From positions 558,001 to 622,000 of the forward strand of contig NZ_CP046457.1 of the NCBI RefSeq assembly GCF_009734445.1: a stretch of DNA of 64,000 bases, given 5' to 3'. The notes beneath the pieces were generated by a model, which was not told the DNA's origin, ran no database searches, and saw only the letters and a program-made list of their open reading frames with translations. Both the position numbers and the translations under genes were made by a program. Positions within the stretch are counted from its first letter, which is position 1. The number at the start of each line of letters is the position of its first letter. This document shows, piece after piece, positions 41,870 through 61,572 of the stretch. Source of the DNA: Candidatus Syntrophocurvum alkaliphilum (lineage in GTDB: Bacteria > Bacillota > Syntrophomonadia > Syntrophomonadales > Syntrophomonadaceae).

Positions 41870-43288
41870 ATGACAGATAATGAAACAAATAGCAATGTGA
41901 AAGTTGATGGTCAAGTTAAAGTAATTGTCGATCGTGAAAAACTTAATGCATATATTGAAGTAACCCCTCCATTAGGGGACGGTAAACCTTGCGAGTATGA
42001 AGATGTAATAAATACTTTAAATGAAAATTCGGTTGTATATCAACTTAAAAAGGAAAAAATTAAAGAAGCTCTTAAAAAAGAAAATTGGAACAAACGGATT
42101 CACATATCTCAAGGAAAACCTCCTGTCAACGGTAAAGATGCTATTATTACATATAAATTCCCTCTTCCTTGGGAAAGAATAGCTAAACCCAAAATAGATG
42201 AAAAAGGAAAAGCAAATTATCAGGATTTAGATTTAATACACAACGTAAAAACAGGTGATTTGTTAGCAGCACGAACACCACCTGATGAAGGTAATCCAGG
42301 TATAGATGTATATGGCAATGAAATTAAACCAAAACCAGGGAAAGATAAATTATTACCTAGAGGTAAAAATACTGTTTGTGATAAAGAAGAGTTAATATTA
42401 TATGCGTCTGCGGCTGGACATGTTACTATGATAGATAATAAGGTAGTAGTTAAGCCTATATATGAACATGATGGAGATGTAGATTATTCTTCTGGAAATA
42501 TAGAATTTGTTGGCAATGTAGTTATAAGGGGCAATGTGAATAGTGGCTTTACTGTCAAGGCAGAGGGAGATATTGAGATATATGGGTTTGTTGAAGGGGC
42601 GCAAATACTAGCAGAAGGTAGTATATATATAAAAGGTGGAATAACAGGAGGAATAAGAGGATATATAAAAGCAGGTGAAAACATATATGCTAGATTTGCA
42701 GAAAATTCACGTTTAGATGCTGGACGCGATATATATATTCGTGATGCAATAATGCAATCTTCGGTTAAAGCAGGAGGGAGCATAAAGGTTGTTGAAAGAA
42801 GGGCTACCATAGTTGGAGGTAATATTCAGGCGTCACAGGAAATTGAAGCTAAATTTATTGGATCACAAATAGGTACACAAACAATAATTAATGTAGGTAT
42901 AAAGCCAGAATATAGGCAGGAATATCAGGAATTAATAAAAAATAGAAATGAAAAGAAAAAGGTTTTTGATCACTTATCACATAATTTACAGATATACCAG
43001 AAGCGAGGTATTTCACCTGAAAATTTAACTGAGAAAAAGCGTTTAACATTAATTAAAATGTTAGATGAGTTGAAAAAAAGTAAACAAGAATTGACTAATA
43101 TGGATAAAAGAATAGCGATATTAGAAGAAGAATTTAAAAATATTAATAACGCAAAAGTTAAAGCAACAGAAGTTGTTTATCCCGGTGTTAAAATTTATAT
43201 TGGTCAATCTATATATTTAGTAAATGATGAAATCAAGTATTCTCAATTTATTTTAGAGAATGGTGATGTTGTTATTTCACCACTATAA
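41870..43288 (+). CDS. FapA family protein (DUF342, polymer-forming)
   Basis: About 472 residues from the ATG at 41870, seven bases after GAGGTGG. The middle is a right-handed beta-helix-like repeat region (about residues 200-330) with short glycine-rich repeats such as GNIEFVGNVVIRGNVNSGF and GRDIYIRDAIMQSSVKAGGS. The C-terminal part is coiled coil. DUF342/FapA proteins are common directly after sigD in Clostridia; no biochemical role is established, and a cell-polar or flagellar scaffold is conjecture. Confidence 0.85.
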   Translation: MTDNETNSNVKVDGQVKVIVDREKLNAYIEVTPPLGDGKPCEYEDVINTLNENSVVYQLKKEKIKEALKKENWNKRIHISQGKPPVNGKDAIITYKFPLPWERIAKPKIDEKGKANYQDLDLIHNVKTGDLLAARTPPDEGNPGIDVYGNEIKPKPGKDKLLPRGKNTVCDKEELILYASAAGHVTMIDNKVVVKPIYEHDGDVDYSSGNIEFVGNVVIRGNVNSGFTVKAEGDIEIYGFVEGAQILAEGSIYIKGGITGGIRGYIKAGENIYARFAENSRLDAGRDIYIRDAIMQSSVKAGGSIKVVERRATIVGGNIQASQEIEAKFIGSQIGTQTIINVGIKPEYRQEYQELIKNRNEKKKVFDHLSHNLQIYQKRGISPENLTEKKRLTLIKMLDELKKSKQELTNMDKRIAILEEEFKNINNAKVKATEVVYPGVKIYIGQSIYLVNDEIKYSQFILENGDVVISPL

Positions 43289-53389: not shown

Positions 53390-53489
53390 TTTTGATTTTG
53401 TTACAAAAAGTAACTACGAAAAACATGTTTGCTCAGCCGATTCCATAGTCTAAGTTTAGTTTTTCACAGTGAAACCAAAATTAATAATT
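53381..53489 (+). mobile_element. Short MITE-like element between ispG and proS
   Basis: AATTATTAATTTTGATTT at 53381-53398 is matched at 53472-53489 by its reverse complement with one mismatch. Between them are about 73 bases with no coding frame. The inner sequence shares the left block (TACAAAAAGTAACTACGAAAAAC) in diverged form, and the right block (AAAAACATGTTTG, then TAGTCTAAGTTTA, then GTGAAACCAAAATTAA), with the element at 55920. No transposase is present; a non-autonomous element is inferred. Confidence 0.65.
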
Positions 53490-53516
53490 ACTTTAGTATA
53501 TAAGGAGGTAGTACTT

Positions 53517-55220
53517 TTGAAAGCTTCTGAACTATTTTATCCTACATTACGAGAAGTGCCTAATGAGGCGGAAATTATTAGCCACCAACTACTATTAAGA
53601 GCTGGTTTTATTAGAAAAGCAAGTGCTGGTATATATTCATATTTACCACTAGCTAATAGAGTGTTAAAAAAAATAATGGATATAGTGCGTGAAGAGATGG
53701 ATAATGCTGGTGCACAAGAGATTATAATGCCTATAGTTCAGCCCAAAGAACTATGGGAAAAATCAGGACGTTGGTCTGTTTATGGAGATGAGATGTTTAG
53801 GTTAAAAGACAGACATGAACGTGATTTTGCGCTTGGTCCGACTCACGAAGAAATTGTAACAGCTATTGTTGATGCAGATGTACATTCCTATCGTGATATG
53901 CCTGTTATGCTTTATCAAATTCAGAACAAATATAGAGACGAAATAAGACCTAGATTTGGGCTAATGCGTGGTAGAGAGTTTATAATGAAGGACTGCTATT
54001 CCTTTGATAATGATTATGATGCTTTAGATATTTCTTATAAAAAAATGTATGAAGCTTATAAAAACATATATGAAAGAATGAATCTTAAGTTTCGTGTTGT
54101 TGAAGCTGATAGTGGTGCAATAGGTGGAAGTGAAAATCACGAATTTATGGTATTAGCAGATAATGGTGAATCAGTTATAGTATACTGTGATGAATGTAAT
54201 TATGCAGCTAATATTGAAAAAGCTGAATGTAAATATAGTGAAGATAATATTATCAAAGAAGAATTCTTAGATATTACAAAAGTTTCTACACCAGAACAAA
54301 AATCAATTAATGAAGTATCTAATTATCTAAATATACCCACTAATAAACTTCTTAAGACAATGCTATATGTAGCAGATGGAGAATTAATAGCTATTGTCCT
54401 AAGGGGTGATAGAGAGCTTAATGAAATAAAGCTTAAAAATAGCATAAATTGCAATCACCTTGATATAGCAGATGAAAATAGAGTCAAAGAGGAAATGGGT
54501 TTTAGCTTTGGTTATGTAGGTCCAGTTGGGCTTGATATAAAGGTTTATGCTGATATTGAGGTAAGCATGGTGCAAAATTTAGTATGTGGAGCTAATGAGG
54601 ATGGATTTCACCTTATTAATGTAAACATGGGAAGAGATTTTACACCAGAACATATTATAGATATACGTAATGCTGTTGAAGGTGATAAATGTCCGGAATG
54701 TTCAAATTTACTCCAAGCTACACGAGGTATAGAAGTAGGACATATTTTTAAGCTTGGTACAAAATATTCAGAATCTATGAATGCAACTTTTTTAGATCAA
54801 AATGGTACTAACAACCATATGATTATGGGATGTTATGGTATTGGAGTATCACGTTCCATGGCTGCAGCTATAGAACAAAACTATGATGAAAACGGAATTA
54901 TCTGGCCTTTACCTATTGCTCCTTACCATGTAATAATAGTGCCAGTAAATGTTAAAAAAGATGACCAACTAGATGTTGCCATGTCACTTTATGAACAACT
55001 AAAAGAAAAGGGAATTGAAGTTATAATAGACGATAGAGATGAAAGAGCAGGTGTCAAATTTAAAGATGCAGATTTAATTGGGATACCTATGAGAGTAACA
55101 ATTGGACCTAAATCATTAAAAGAAAACAAAGTAGAATTTAAAAAAAGATGGGAGAAAGAATCCGAGTTAATAGATATTTACGAAATAGTTAATAAAATAA
55201 CTAATATAATCGATAAATAA
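53517..55220 (+). CDS. proS: Prolyl-tRNA synthetase (bacterial type)
   Basis: Class II aminoacyl-tRNA synthetase. About 567 residues from the TTG at 53517, eight bases after AAGGAGG; an earlier GTG start falls inside the repeat element. Motifs LRAGFIRKASAGIYSYLPLA, GPTHEEIVTAIVDADVHSYR, RPRFGLMRGREFIMKDCYSF, and GCYGIGVSRSMAAAIEQNYD. The editing (INS) domain spans about residues 225-380. C-terminal anticodon-binding domain complete. Confidence 0.97.
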   Translation: MKASELFYPTLREVPNEAEIISHQLLLRAGFIRKASAGIYSYLPLANRVLKKIMDIVREEMDNAGAQEIIMPIVQPKELWEKSGRWSVYGDEMFRLKDRHERDFALGPTHEEIVTAIVDADVHSYRDMPVMLYQIQNKYRDEIRPRFGLMRGREFIMKDCYSFDNDYDALDISYKKMYEAYKNIYERMNLKFRVVEADSGAIGGSENHEFMVLADNGESVIVYCDECNYAANIEKAECKYSEDNIIKEEFLDITKVSTPEQKSINEVSNYLNIPTNKLLKTMLYVADGELIAIVLRGDRELNEIKLKNSINCNHLDIADENRVKEEMGFSFGYVGPVGLDIKVYADIEVSMVQNLVCGANEDGFHLINVNMGRDFTPEHIIDIRNAVEGDKCPECSNLLQATRGIEVGHIFKLGTKYSESMNATFLDQNGTNNHMIMGCYGIGVSRSMAAAIEQNYDENGIIWPLPIAPYHVIIVPVNVKKDDQLDVAMSLYEQLKEKGIEVIIDDRDERAGVKFKDADLIGIPMRVTIGPKSLKENKVEFKKRWEKESELIDIYEIVNKITNIIDK

Positions 55221-56133: not shown

Positions 56134-59100
56134 ATGAATAAAAGTTTTCGTGCTTTTTTAGATAATATAAAATTTGATAAAGCTGAAATATGGGAAGATT
56201 CTATTGTTGATAAAGTATTAGTAGATTCACAGAATAAGATATGGAAAATACATCTTATAACTCCCCGACTTATGTCTTCAACTTTAATTAATAGTACAAC
56301 AAAATATATAAGTGAAAAAAATAGTTACTTAGAAGTAGTAGAACTAGTACAAGTACCCGTAGATGCAAAAAAAAGTATAAAAGCTATTTTAGACTCCCGC
56401 AAGGATGAATTATCATCCTACTTATTTTCTGATAACAATTCTCTTGTTATTGATGAATTAGAATGGACTGTATCTAATAACAAAGTTGACATATTAATAA
56501 ATAATAAAAAAATATATGATGAAATTCTAGAAAAAAATATAGCTTCATCAGTTTATCAATGGTTTTGGAATGAATATAAATATCAAGTTATAGTTAGGGT
56601 AATATTAAACTCAAGTGTAGACAATGTACCTACAGTGCCAAGTGTTATAAAAACAAAATCTAAGTTAAATGTTATAGAAGAAGATAAAAACAAAACAACC
56701 AATGAAAACAAGAAAAAGTCTTTTAGAAAAAACAAAAAATTAGAAGTAGAAGTTATTCAGGATGAAATTACTCCTGTTTCGGAGTTAGTAGAAGGACTAA
56801 GGTCTGTCGCAGTAAAAGGTGAAATATGGAAAAAAGATATTAATATTTTAAAAGATAATAGACTAGTTGTATCATACTACCTTACTGATTACAACGATAC
56901 TATTGTTGTAAAGCAGTTTTATGATCGAGCAGAAGATGACTTGATTAACAAAGGAGATTGGATAAAGGTAAAAGGTAGTATAAGGTATGATACTTTTTTA
57001 AAAGAAATCGTACTATATATGGATATATTTGCTCGTGAAAAAAAACCTATAAGAATGGATAATGAATCTAACAAAAGAATCGAATTACATGCTCATACTA
57101 AAATGAGTTTAATGGATGGATTAACACCGATAGATGAGCTTATAAATAGGGCTGAAGAATGGGGACATAGTGCTATAGCAATAACTGATCATGGTTGTAC
57201 TCAAGCATTTCCGGATGCATATGATGCAGCCAAAAACAGTAATTTAAAAGTAATTTATGGTGTTGAGGGATACTTAATAGAAGAAGATAAGAAAGAAAGA
57301 CCCTATCATATTATATTGTTAGTTAAAAACCAAACTGGTTTAGAAAACTTATATAAACTTATAAGCCTATCATATGTAGATCATTATCACCGGTTTCCTA
57401 AAATGCCAAGAGGTTTAATAGAAAAATACAGAGAAGGCCTGATTATAGGATCAGCTTGTGATTCAGGAGAATTGTATTCTGCTATATTAAATCAGGCTAA
57501 TGATGAAGAATTAATAAACATTGCTTCTTTTTATGATTATTTAGAAGTTCAACCTATATCAAATATTGATTTTCTCCTTAGAAAAGGTACAGTTAATACA
57601 ACAGAAGACCTACAAAATATAATTAAAAAGATAATTAATTTAGGTGATCAGCTTGATAAATTAGTGGTTGCTACTGGAGATGTGCATTACCTTGATCCTG
57701 AAGATAGTATATTAAGGGAAATCATACAAGCAGGTCAAGGGTATGATGATGCATGGCAACAAGCTCCATTATACTTTAAAACAACTAAAGAAATGTTAGA
57801 TGATTTTAATTTCATAAATATAGAAAATGCTAAAAAAATAGTGATAGAGAATCCAAGAAAAGTATCTGAACAAATAGAAAATGTACAACCTGTACCTGAC
57901 GGATTTTATCCACCTAAAATAGATACCGCAGAAGAAGAAATAATAAATCTTACATATGGGAAAGCCAAAGAAATTTATTCTGATAATATTCCTGATATAA
58001 TTCAAAAAAGAATTGAAAGAGAACTATATGCGATTACAACCCATGGTTTCAGTGTATTATATCTTATATCTCATAAGCTAGTTAAAAAATCTAATGATGA
58101 TGGATATTTAGTAGGTTCTAGAGGTTCAGTTGGTTCCTCTATAGTTGCTTATTTAACTGGAATTACTGAAGTTAATCCATTACCACCACATTATATATGT
58201 ATTTCTTGTAATTATAGTGAATTTATATTAGATGGTTCAGTAGGTTGTGGTTCTGATCTTAAAGATAAAATTTGTCCACAATGTAATAATGAACTTGGAA
58301 AAGATGGATTTGATATACCATTCGAAACTTTCTTAGGATTTGAAGGGGATAAGGTTCCTGATATAGATTTAAACTTTTCAGGAGATTACCAAAGTAAAGC
58401 CCATCAATATGTAGAAGAGCTTTTTGGAAAAGAAAATGTATTTAGAGCAGGCACAATATCAACTATAGCTGATAAAACAGCCTATGGTTTTGTTAAAAAG
58501 CATTTTGAAGAAAAGCAAAAAGATATCAAAAACTCAGAAGCATCAAGACTTACAAAAGGTATAACTGGTGTAAGAAGAACTACAGGGCAGCACCCCGGTG
58601 GGCTTATAGTAGTTCCTAAAAATAAAAATATATATGAATTTACTCCTATTCAACATCCCGCTGATAAAAAGGAATCAGGTATTATTACAACCCATTTTGA
58701 ATATCATGCTATAGATAATCAGTTAGTTAAATTAGACATACTAGGGCATGATGATCCTACAGTAATAAAAGAGTTAGAAGATTTAACAGGTGTTAATGCA
58801 TCTAAAATTAGTCTTAGTGAGCAAAAAACTATGAAAATATTTTCAGGTGTAGAACCCTTAGGTGTTAGTGCTGAAGATATAGATTCAAAAGTAGGGACGT
58901 ATGGAATACCAGAATTTGGCACGAAATTTGTTCGTCAAATGCTTGAACAAACCAAACCAACAACTTTTGCTGAATTAGTTAAAATAAGTGGATTATCTCA
59001 TGGTACTGATGTTTGGCTTAATAACGCTCAAGATTTAGTGAAAAATGAAGTAGCTAGTTTAAACGAGGTTATATGTACTCGTGATGATATTATGACTTAC

Positions 59101-59781
59101 TTAATATTTAAGGGAATGGACAAAAAACTAGCATTTAAAATAATGGAAAACGTGCGTAAGGGAAAAGGACTTAAACCTGATGAAATAGAATTGATGAAAA
59201 AATGTGATATACCAGATTGGTATATAAACTCTTGCCAAAAAATAAAATATATGTTTCCTAAAGCTCATGCAGTTGCATATGTAACCATGGCATATCGTAT
59301 AGCCTATTTTAAGGTATATTATCCATTAGAGTTTTATGCAAGCTTTTTTAGTATTAGAGCTGAGGATTTTGATTCAGAAGTTATTTTAGCAGGCTATGAT
59401 GCAATAAAAAGAAAGATAAAGGAGATTGAAAATTTAGGATATCAAGCTTCACAGAAAGACAAAAAACTCGTTACTATACTAGAGTTAGCAATGGAAATGT
59501 ATGCTAGGGGATTATATTTTTATCCAGTTAATTTATATAAATCAGATGCGAAAAAGTTTATTGTTAAAGACAAAGGTCTTATACTGCCATTTTCCTCTTT
59601 ACCCAATGTTGGTTTAGCTGCTGCTGATGGTATATGTGAAGCAAGAGAGCAGGAAAAGTTTATATCTATAGAAGACTTTCAAGTTAAAACACGTTTAAAT
59701 AAAACTGCAATGGATGTTCTAAGAAAAAACAATTGTTTTGAAGACTTACCCGAAACTACTCAGATAAGTTTATTTGGATAA
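56134..59781 (+). CDS. polC: DNA polymerase III alpha subunit, PolC type, lacking the exonuclease insert
   Basis: Replicative polymerase of low-GC Gram-positives. About 1215 residues from the ATG at 56134 after TTGGAGG. Order: N-terminal domain (1-210), OB fold (about 225-305), PHP domain from HAHTKMSLMDG (319) through ITDHG and GDVHYLD (515-521), palm with VGSRGSVGSS (660-669), a cysteine cluster (689-717) and the catalytic Asp pair in PDIDLNF (742-748), then a C-terminal domain. Other PolC proteins carry a DEDDh 3'-5' exonuclease inserted in PHP; here IYGVEGYLIEEDKKE runs directly into RPYHIILLVKN and no DxETTG motif occurs anywhere. That accounts for about 220 missing residues. Confidence 0.95.
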   Translation: MNKSFRAFLDNIKFDKAEIWEDSIVDKVLVDSQNKIWKIHLITPRLMSSTLINSTTKYISEKNSYLEVVELVQVPVDAKKSIKAILDSRKDELSSYLFSDNNSLVIDELEWTVSNNKVDILINNKKIYDEILEKNIASSVYQWFWNEYKYQVIVRVILNSSVDNVPTVPSVIKTKSKLNVIEEDKNKTTNENKKKSFRKNKKLEVEVIQDEITPVSELVEGLRSVAVKGEIWKKDINILKDNRLVVSYYLTDYNDTIVVKQFYDRAEDDLINKGDWIKVKGSIRYDTFLKEIVLYMDIFAREKKPIRMDNESNKRIELHAHTKMSLMDGLTPIDELINRAEEWGHSAIAITDHGCTQAFPDAYDAAKNSNLKVIYGVEGYLIEEDKKERPYHIILLVKNQTGLENLYKLISLSYVDHYHRFPKMPRGLIEKYREGLIIGSACDSGELYSAILNQANDEELINIASFYDYLEVQPISNIDFLLRKGTVNTTEDLQNIIKKIINLGDQLDKLVVATGDVHYLDPEDSILREIIQAGQGYDDAWQQAPLYFKTTKEMLDDFNFINIENAKKIVIENPRKVSEQIENVQPVPDGFYPPKIDTAEEEIINLTYGKAKEIYSDNIPDIIQKRIERELYAITTHGFSVLYLISHKLVKKSNDDGYLVGSRGSVGSSIVAYLTGITEVNPLPPHYICISCNYSEFILDGSVGCGSDLKDKICPQCNNELGKDGFDIPFETFLGFEGDKVPDIDLNFSGDYQSKAHQYVEELFGKENVFRAGTISTIADKTAYGFVKKHFEEKQKDIKNSEASRLTKGITGVRRTTGQHPGGLIVVPKNKNIYEFTPIQHPADKKESGIITTHFEYHAIDNQLVKLDILGHDDPTVIKELEDLTGVNASKISLSEQKTMKIFSGVEPLGVSAEDIDSKVGTYGIPEFGTKFVRQMLEQTKPTTFAELVKISGLSHGTDVWLNNAQDLVKNEVASLNEVICTRDDIMTYLIFKGMDKKLAFKIMENVRKGKGLKPDEIELMKKCDIPDWYINSCQKIKYMFPKAHAVAYVTMAYRIAYFKVYYPLEFYASFFSIRAEDFDSEVILAGYDAIKRKIKEIENLGYQASQKDKKLVTILELAMEMYARGLYFYPVNLYKSDAKKFIVKDKGLILPFSSLPNVGLAAADGICEAREQEKFISIEDFQVKTRLNKTAMDVLRKNNCFEDLPETTQISLFG

Positions 59782-59918: not shown

Positions 59919-59948
59919 TTGTATAATTTTATTCCAATGTGTTATACT
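59919..59948 (+). promoter_or_regulatory. Candidate promoter for the rimP-nusA-infB operon
   Basis: TTGTAT, 18 bases, TATACT with the extended -10 TG at 59940-59941. It lies in the 262-base gap after polC and just before a terminator-like hairpin. The remainder of the gap (59782-59918) is AT-rich, with one imperfect AACCTAGT/ACTAAGGTT inverted repeat and no open frame. Confidence 0.55.
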
Positions 59949-59976
59949 GCTTAATAGCAACTAATATTTTTGTCAC

Positions 59977-59999
59977 AAAGTGGGTGCAGCCCACTTTTT
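59977..59999 (+). terminator. Terminator-like hairpin in the rimP leader
   Basis: AAAGTGGG/CCCACTTT stem, loop TGCAG, ending in TTTTT. It lies downstream of the candidate promoter and 45 bases before the rimP start, so it could act as an attenuator of the nusA operon or, if read from polC, as a plain terminator. Confidence 0.75.
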
Positions 60000-60043
60000 C
60001 TATTGTTATAACTAGTGCAAAATATTTTGGAGGTGATATTGTT

Positions 60044-60502
60044 TTGGCTGAGGATATAAAAAAATTAATAAATAAATTAATTGAGCATGAACTAAAAGAA
60101 GCTGGCATTGAACTAGTTGATATTGAAGTAAATAAAGAAGATAAAGCAAAAATGCTAAGAATATTTATTGATACACCAAACGGAGTAACTTTGGATTTGT
60201 GCACTGATGCCTCAAAAACAATAAAAGCTATATTAGATGACCATGAAGATAAAGTAGATTATGATTACTTAGAAGTATCATCTCCAGGAATAAATCGTGT
60301 TCTTAAAACAGAAAAAGATTTTAAAAAATTTATAGGTAGTAGAATAAAACTAAAAACCTATCAACCCCTTGATGGAAGAAAAAACTTTACTGGCATACTG
60401 AAAAGTTATACCAACGAAAATATTGAAATTGAATTTGATTCAAATGTAGTATTAATACCTAGGGAATCAATTGCCCAGGTAAAATTACATCCACAATTAT
60501 AA
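60044..60502 (+). CDS. rimP: Ribosome maturation factor RimP
   Basis: Needed for 30S subunit maturation. About 152 residues from the TTG at 60044, six bases after GGAGGTGAT; the longer open frame runs through the leader hairpin and is not credible as protein. Motifs AGIELVDIEVNKEDKAKMLR, DYLEVSSPGINRVLKTEKDF and the C-terminal SH3-like part ending in IPRESIAQVKLHPQL are typical. Confidence 0.95.
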   Translation: MAEDIKKLINKLIEHELKEAGIELVDIEVNKEDKAKMLRIFIDTPNGVTLDLCTDASKTIKAILDDHEDKVDYDYLEVSSPGINRVLKTEKDFKKFIGSRIKLKTYQPLDGRKNFTGILKSYTNENIEIEFDSNVVLIPRESIAQVKLHPQL

Positions 60503-60516
60503 GAGGAGGCAAAACA

Positions 60517-61572
60517 ATGTCTAATGATTTAATCCAGGCATTGGGTGAAATAGAAAAAGAGCGGGGGATTCCTAAAACAGCTTTAATTGAAGCAATAAAA
60601 GTAGCTCTTAACACAGCATATAAAAAGAATTTTGGTACTGCTCAAAATGTTAATGTTGAATTAAATGAAATTACAGGAGCAGTTCAAGTTTTTGCTGAAA
60701 AACGTGTAGTTGAAGATGTAAAGGATGCTCGGTATGAATTATCACTCGAAGATGCTTTAGAACAAAATCCTAATATATCACTTGAGGATATTGTTACTGT
60801 TGAGGTTACTCCTGCAAACTTTGGAAGAATAGCTGCTCAAACTGCCAAACAAGTAGTTATTCAAAAATTAAGAGAAGCAGAACGAAGTATTATATTTGAA
60901 GAGTTTGCTGAAAGAGAAGGTGAAATAGTAACTGGTACAGTACAAAGAATAGAGTCAAGAATAATACATATTAATTTAGGGCGAACTGAAGCAATTATGA
61001 TGCCTAATGACCAAATACCTTCAGAGACATATAATATTGGAAACAGAATTAAAGGTTATATTTATGAAGTGAAGAATACTGCTAAAGGGCCTAATATTCT
61101 AATATCACGTACTCATCCATATTTTTTACGGCGTTTATTTGAGCTTGAGGTACCTGAAATATATGAAGGTTTAGTTGAAATAAAATCCGTTTCGCGTGAA
61201 GCAGGGTCTAGATCAAAAATAGCAGTTAACTCAGTTGAAGATAATATTGATTCAGTAGGTTCCTGTGTAGGACCAAAAGGTATAAGAGTACAAAATATAG
61301 TTACTGAATTATCTGGTGAAAAAATTGATATTATAAAATATGATAGAGATCCAGAAAATTATATAGCTAATTCTCTTAGCCCTTCTAAAGTTTTATCGGT
61401 TACTGTAAATGAAGAGGAAAAAACAGCAAGAGTTATAGTTCCTGATTATCAGTTATCTTTAGCTATTGGCAAGGAAGGGCAAAATGCTCGCCTAGCAGCA
61501 AGGCTTACTGGATGGAAAGTGGATATTAAGAGTGAAAGTCAATTCCAAGAGGAGAATGATTTTGATGGTTAA
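60517..61572 (+). CDS. nusA: Transcription termination/antitermination factor NusA
   Basis: 351 residues, the short Firmicute form without C-terminal acidic repeats. N-terminal RNA polymerase-binding domain (LGEIEKERGIPKTALIEAIK), S1 domain around GTVQRIESRIIHINLGRTEA, then two KH domains with AGSRSKIAVNS, GSCVGPKGIRVQNIVTELSG and AIGKEGQNARLAARLTGWKV. AGAGGAGG precedes the ATG. Confidence 0.97.
   Translation: MSNDLIQALGEIEKERGIPKTALIEAIKVALNTAYKKNFGTAQNVNVELNEITGAVQVFAEKRVVEDVKDARYELSLEDALEQNPNISLEDIVTVEVTPANFGRIAAQTAKQVVIQKLREAERSIIFEEFAEREGEIVTGTVQRIESRIIHINLGRTEAIMMPNDQIPSETYNIGNRIKGYIYEVKNTAKGPNILISRTHPYFLRRLFELEVPEIYEGLVEIKSVSREAGSRSKIAVNSVEDNIDSVGSCVGPKGIRVQNIVTELSGEKIDIIKYDRDPENYIANSLSPSKVLSVTVNEEEKTARVIVPDYQLSLAIGKEGQNARLAARLTGWKVDIKSESQFQEENDFDG

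Follow-up and report, generated by a model that had tools for sequence, protein, structure and literature searches.

The window analyzed here, a 64,000-nucleotide stretch of the Candidatus Syntrophocurvum alkaliphilum chromosome (NZ_CP046457.1, positions 558,001 to 622,000 of the forward strand), encodes a PolC-type DNA polymerase III alpha subunit without the DEDDh exonuclease (Exo) insert (Table 1). The surrounding genes are arranged in the order dxr, rseP, ispG, proS, an mgtC-like gene, polC, rimP, nusA, and an L7Ae-family gene, and the gene that follows was read from its sequence as probably encoding IF-2; the proS-polC-rimP-nusA setting is normal. The polC reading frame is unbroken, and its start was taken as the ATG at 56134, with TTGGAGG ahead of it, which would give the 1215-residue protein whose numbering is used throughout.

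Table 1. Features of the polC locus (coordinates refer to the 64,000-nucleotide window).
Feature	Coordinates	Strand	Basis or remark
proS, proline--tRNA ligase, upstream neighbour of polC	53469..55220	+	
polC, Exo-less PolC-type DNA polymerase III alpha, 1215 aa	56134..59781	+	ORF, RBS-like TTGGAGG, NCBIfam matches
OB-fold region, residues 225-285	56806..56988	+	PF01336, 18.0 bits, E 0.0029, under cut-off of 27
PHP domain, Pfam-matched part, residues 317-464	57082..57525	+	PF02811, 126.4 bits
Nine PHP metal ligands: H319, H321, D328, H353, E378, H392, C442, D516, H518	57088..57687	+	Pattern HHDHEHCDH
Exo-less junction: stretch of 13 residues separating PHP ligands E378 and H392	57268..57306	+	
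Polymerase core, Pfam-matched part, holding D743 and D745	57937..58524	+	PF07733
C-terminal QISLF, residues 1210-1214	59761..59775	+	Like clamp-binding pentapeptide QL[S/D]LF
rimP, downstream neighbour of polC	59939..60502	+	RimP models, best 123 bits, below their cut-offs
nusA, downstream neighbour of polC	60517..61572	+	

The protein was matched by the NCBIfam PolC models NF001688 (1554 bits; cut-off, 873) and TIGR01405 (1402 bits; cut-off, 1043), the top-scoring stretch beginning past the Exo gap, and Pfam identified the PHP, polymerase core, finger, and HHH domains. The PHP domain was taken to extend to about residue 545. D743, D745, and D868, which we take to be the catalytic Asp residues of the palm, are all kept, and this DDD triad is found in 103 of 103 aligned PolCs; D868 (window 58735-58737) lies beyond the part of the core that Pfam matched. 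Residues 215-1215 were modeled from 17 sequences, and the resulting structure has a mean pLDDT of 88.9. The OB fold that precedes the PHP domain in PolC-type enzymes is present, as the sub-cut-off PF01336 match, the alignment of the model to 3f2b, and OB-type structural matches for model residues 1-90 (e.g. 3e0e, Z 12.9, 82 residues) indicate. The PolC N-terminal domain PF14480 reached 19.5 bits against a cut-off of 22 in a region outside the model. At the C-terminus, QISLF is a putative clamp-binding motif, resembling the consensus QL[S/D]LF given for sliding-clamp binding (PMC3919608). The nearest structure to the model is the Geobacillus kaustophilus PolC crystal (Z 47.6-47.7, rmsd 2.7, 981-982 residues), for which a construct with Exo taken out is described (PMC12592400), and in the model the natural Exo-less form and the laboratory deletion look alike. 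Canonical PolCs (G. kaustophilus, 3f2b; E. faecium, 9qpc) share the fold, the core motifs, and 51-54% identity over the aligned part, and differ from the present PolC in carrying the DEDDh insert and, in G. kaustophilus, in having Asn in place of D516.

In Exo-bearing PolCs, the DEDDh domain is located between PHP metal ligands 5 and 6. At this site, the window gene has E378 (codon 57265-57267) and H392 (codon 57307-57309) separated by only the residues GYLIEEDKKERPY, in place of the canonical insert. Across 132 PolCs the spacing is 12-33 residues in Exo-less and 204-218 residues in Exo-bearing proteins, close to the shortfall of about 220 residues estimated in the first-pass annotation, and it is exactly 13 residues in 26 of 26 counted sequences from the same order, the window gene included. 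Alignment of E. faecium PolC (9qpc) yielded two blocks with chain residues 432-631 skipped, and comparison with this and other PolCs upheld the absence. Scanning window frames of at least 120 residues on both strands for DxE[TA][TSN] gave no match in polC and a single match, at 41876, in a different gene; together with the lack of an RNase_T match, this agrees with the earlier observation that Exo is missing at 57270-57310 and that the protein holds no exonuclease motif. The PHP motifs HAH, DHG, and GDVH, which had been described as intact, belong to a site in which all nine ligands are kept.

The absence had been treated as peculiar to one protein; it is in fact order-wide and corresponds to a variant published in 2013 (PMC3919608). 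Of 63 genomes searched from the order, 57 yielded PolC matches spanning the Exo site, none with an insert; one match (G032) ends before the site, and five genomes (G003, G014, G015, G018, and G052) gave no PolC match with this query. The match in G019 stops at H392, and the frame in G061 is broken further on. An assembly or annotation artefact as the source of the missing Exo is scarcely credible, with the polC frame open, the insert absent from all 57 matches, and the 13-residue spacing constant. Because the same spacing and lack of insert recur across the order, a collapsed or missing assembly segment at the junction, raised earlier as a possible refutation, is excluded in practice. The PolC described here is apparently an orthologous, working enzyme of a lineage without the DEDDh insert.

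Exo-less PolCs were reported by Timinskas et al. in Clostridia and Negativicutes and as one extra PolC copy in Thermotogae, and their Table 2 puts them at 6% of PolCs and 16% in systems combining PolC with DnaE1 (PMC3919608). The present PolC belongs to this variant: it lacks the insert, is paired in its genome with a replicase taken as DnaE1, and falls in a PolC group with a conserved PHP site, as that report describes. The difference from the published 6% lies in the extent of the state, which covers 57/57 matches in the order and 49/75 genomes in a sample of the phylum, in the several changes of state, and in the frequent absence of PF00929. For the phylum sample, 101 genomes that were at least 90% complete were drawn evenly; scoring was confined to the six top first-look candidates in each, Exo state was inferred from match coverage and frame length, and two genomes without a PF00929 match were taken to be G158 and G159. 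PolC matches were obtained in 77 genomes, 49 of them Exo-less, 26 Exo-bearing, and 2 undecided (G133 and G140, in which polC is cut off), hence 49 of 75 decidable cases. All 25 PF00929 matches in PolC-sized frames fell in genomes scored Exo-bearing. G126, a genome without a PF00929 match, was scored Exo-less though its frame has 1372 codons, and G105 was scored Exo-bearing from a PF00929 match in an N-terminal piece. Exo-less PolC is not rare in the phylum, and the 49/75 figure is not directly comparable with those of 2013, as the sampling differs. The nearest Exo-bearing relative belongs to a class of only four genomes, each of them Exo-bearing.

A single clade of Exo-less PolCs was rejected on a quick tree of 40 of the 103 rows (AU p 3.5e-67), where well supported branches force at least four changes of Exo state; at least five are forced on the 103-sequence quick tree, and on a tree of 132 PolCs the Exo state changes nine times and the PHP state three times. 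The 103-row tree was made after dropping four broken or cut-off sequences (L023, L074, L104, and L123) and two that repeat the L007 and L015 genes (L061 and L062). From the 132-PolC set, L191 was dropped as the same gene as L027; in the ligand reading, L105 has no palm ORF and L005, being the window gene, was left out, as were L161 and L162 in the additional reading. Since the insert occupies the same position in the Exo-bearing PolCs read, one gain followed by several losses is the simplest story for these unrooted trees, which were made without an outgroup. Survival of a freed PolC Exo as a stand-alone protein was also considered, and no supported case emerged from the Exo-domain tree, which is poorly resolved and whose group counts are unusable, two of its "alone" rows (L036 and L037) being in reality PolC Exo domains. 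The longest Exo-less linkers occur in L070, a Peptococcaceae MAG (33 residues), and L132 (30 residues), and are possible remnants of the insert. What is new here is the Exo-less majority in the phylum sample and the finding that Exo state changed repeatedly along the tree.

The PHP site of the window protein agrees at all nine positions with the pattern HHDHEH[C/H]DH given for active PHP domains (PMC12926913). Sorting the 132 PolCs by both features resulted in 64 Exo-less proteins with an intact site, 46 Exo-bearing proteins with an intact site, 22 Exo-bearing proteins with a changed site, and no PolC (0/132) lacking both Exo and the full site. In 21 of the 22 changed sites (21/68 Exo-bearing PolCs) D516 is replaced by Asn, the carriers being 18 of 20 Bacilli and three genomes of one family. 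The 3f2b alignment places Asn at this position in G. kaustophilus PolC, an enzyme reported to have one of the nine ligands mutated and to have shown no PHP exonuclease activity (PMC5636811). According to the same source, changing aspartate 226 of the Mycobacterium tuberculosis enzyme abolishes its exonuclease, and we infer that this residue is the counterpart of D516. Judged from these sequences, the two types appear as mirror images, Bacillus-type PolC having Exo and a changed PHP site and the present type having the PHP site and no Exo. Two Bacilli, L096 (Brevibacillus thermoruber) and L120 (Sporolactobacillus), have Exo together with all nine ligands, unlike the other 18. A Vallitaleaceae MAG (L130), sister to Exo-less Lachnospiraceae on the 103-row tree, is Exo-bearing with the site NHDYEHCDH, a change separate from that of the Bacilli.

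Of the 229 PHP columns, 33 are invariant across the Exo-less PolCs, the nine ligands included, which points to strong constraint whatever its cause. An independent-pairs test of Exo loss against an intact PHP site on the 132-PolC tree was not significant, and with few independent changes the pattern of compensation between the two is weak by phylogenetic count. Nor was PHP seen to be under tighter selection where Exo is missing: ratios of PHP to core evolution are 1.02-1.52 in six Exo-less groups, compared with 1.30 in Exo-bearing Clostridia, 1.47 in Halanaerobiales, and 2.27 in Bacilli. These ratios, calculated for nine hand-made groups containing 97 of the 103 rows (omitting L033, L034, L065, L067, L086, and L095), suggest that PHP is loosened only in Bacilli among the groups compared.

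Proofreading by a separate protein was addressed by searching the genome, a single contig that is 99.7% complete, with PF00929, TIGR00573, and PF01612. PF00929 matched one protein, and TIGR00573, at E values up to 10, matched the same one, a 298-residue protein, encoded beside cas1, in which Cas2e is fused to a DEDDh domain. Its gene (L142:12916-13812, minus strand) lies outside the window at about 934.9-935.8 kb of contig C1, within an apparent type I-E CRISPR operon that has a repeat array nearby; a similar protein occurs in G016 (L039). A stand-alone DnaQ in this genome was rejected on these results, and the earlier proposal that a separate DnaQ-like protein proofreads finds no support. In the order, PF00929 was unmatched in 44 of 63 genomes and in 40 of the 57 with a site-spanning Exo-less PolC; many of these genomes are incomplete, and at completeness of at least 90% and contamination of at most 5% the proportion without a match is 23/35. 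Because most genomes of the order have no match, PolC has no constant partner among PF00929 proteins. In favor of a DEDDh protein acting as an epsilon-like subunit are the 19 order genomes with some PF00929 match and the phylum sample, where 36 of the 49 Exo-less genomes have a match (13 have none) and some of the matched frames, of about 870-980 codons, were taken for helicase fusions. The proteins inspected from the order differ in type and occur patchily, however, and with a Cas2e fusion as the lone candidate in the genome itself we regard this explanation as very improbable.

The 3'-5' exonuclease domain of Pol I (868 aa; L160, C1 about 1.625-1.628 Mb) was matched by PF01612 at 27.8 bits (cut-off, 23.6), no DxE motif was seen at the start of the domain, and from its sequence the domain looks degenerate; inactivation of the Pol I exonuclease is reported to be common in Firmicutes (PMC12926913). 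A phage-type family A polymerase of 653 aa (L142:3188-5149, minus strand) has a weak PF01612 match (19.4 bits) and looks to lie in an integrated element, and in the relative G001 four matches to PF01612 fall in frames of 646-664 codons.

A second polymerase, for which the first-pass annotation had suggested looking, is present as one further PF07733 gene (DnaE; frame of 1134 codons, about G000:C1:1635.9-1639.4 kb). Its PHP ligands read HHDHEHCDH (9/9), as do those of the five relatives' DnaEs read (5/5), it has the clamp-type motif QLTLF, and the intact PHP site led us to take it as DnaE1 rather than DnaE3. It is conceivable that PolC does not proofread, that DnaE1 carries out most replication or corrects PolC errors in trans through its own PHP site, and that PolC has a special role. 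Such a division, with DnaE1 replicating and PolC used in specific situations, is an idea raised in PMC3919608, and the nine ligands and QLTLF motif of DnaE are in keeping with it. At E 1e-60, 24 of the 101 phylum-sample genomes (at least 90% completeness) gave no PolC match and may depend on DnaE alone, and the order search found none in G015, a member of the same family at 98% completeness. Against this, the Asp triad, the clamp-type motif, and all nine PHP ligands are kept in PolC, its gene setting is retained, and 57 of the 63 order genomes have a site-spanning PolC match, so that we consider a non-proofreading PolC beside a correcting DnaE1 unlikely.

The reading that we favor, at a probability of roughly 0.6, is that, with an intact DnaE1 alongside, the PHP domain proofreads in Exo-less PolC as it does in Mycobacterium DnaE1. 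This was one of the options offered in the first-pass annotation; the completeness of the zinc site in both PolC and DnaE speaks for it, and the activity itself is predicted. After a mispairing by PolC, the end of the primer would move into the PHP site and be trimmed there by zinc-dependent hydrolysis, with Mycobacterium DnaE1 as the model. The short E378-H392 loop, occupying the place of Exo in Bacillus-type PolC, would leave the PHP site accessible, an effect that this loop also has in DnaE enzymes. DnaE, which likewise has a clamp-type motif and an intact PHP site, would share in replication and may proofread for both replicases, and MutS-type mismatch repair would act behind both. A further step is to regard the PHP sites of PolC and DnaE1 as the sole proofreaders, neither replicase having one of the DEDD type, throughout the order and in many lineages of the phylum; this extension is tentative, and we give it slightly less than an even chance.

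Counting against PHP proofreading is the fact that 46 of the 68 Exo-bearing PolCs likewise keep all nine ligands, and for this reason ligand conservation alone is no proof of proofreading. A structural or pyrophosphatase role of PHP would conserve the nine ligands too, and both have been reported, the former in E. coli (PMC3666897) and the latter in PMC4822814. With such a role PolC would have no proofreading partner, and fidelity would come from nucleotide selection and from mismatch repair, for which the genome has a MutS-type gene. This arrangement sits poorly with the retention of all nine ligands in 64 of 64 Exo-less PolCs when at least one is changed in 22 of 68 Exo-bearing ones, few as the independent events are; because those 22 are changed, a complete PHP site appears dispensable for the polymerase as such. 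We therefore judge a PolC without any proofreader to be quite improbable.

Known systems bear on PHP proofreading by PolC in different ways. All eight Negativicutes PolCs in the 103-row tree are Exo-less, and Sporomusa ovata is presumably a member of this class. In its PolC1, a PHP substitution arose during an adaptation experiment, and the authors suggest PHP proofreading (PMC4632017). The PHP domain of M. tuberculosis is described as the essential replicative exonuclease, and PolC Exo as inserted in a loop beside the PHP site (PMC5636811). M. tuberculosis DnaE1 (7pu7) and the present enzyme have in common the nine-ligand PHP site and the loop in the place of Exo; the latter differs in being a PolC, known here from sequence, whose proofreading is predicted, and in coming from a genome with a MutS-type gene, whereas mycobacteria are reported to be without mismatch repair (PMC5636811). 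Thermus aquaticus DNA polymerase III alpha likewise has an intact nine-ligand PHP site, with a loop of 18 residues (PMC5636811), in a DnaE architecture that gave a weaker structural match (2hpi, Z 33.5, 782 residues). Searches of the literature by titles and the beginnings of abstracts found no biochemical study of an Exo-less PolC. PolC is targeted by a drug that has reached late clinical development (PMC12592400).

Bacillus-type enzymes cannot show whether PolC proofreads through PHP, because they have Exo and in most cases a changed PHP site (18/20 Bacilli). Exo-less PolCs with a full PHP site, in genomes that yielded no DnaQ-like protein, offer a clean natural test, and the useful addition made here is to point to lineages that have an Exo-less PolC and in which searches turned up no DEDDh protein, so that PHP proofreading by PolC is directly testable. 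The distribution suggests that the description of Exo inside PHP as a hallmark of PolC fits Bacilli and many Clostridia better than the whole phylum. If the PHP sites are indeed the sole proofreaders, the phylum would have Exo-less PolC as its commoner form and not as a rarity, and the Exo domain of PolC would be a dispensable add-on, shed (or gained) several times and its absence tolerated only with an intact PHP site.
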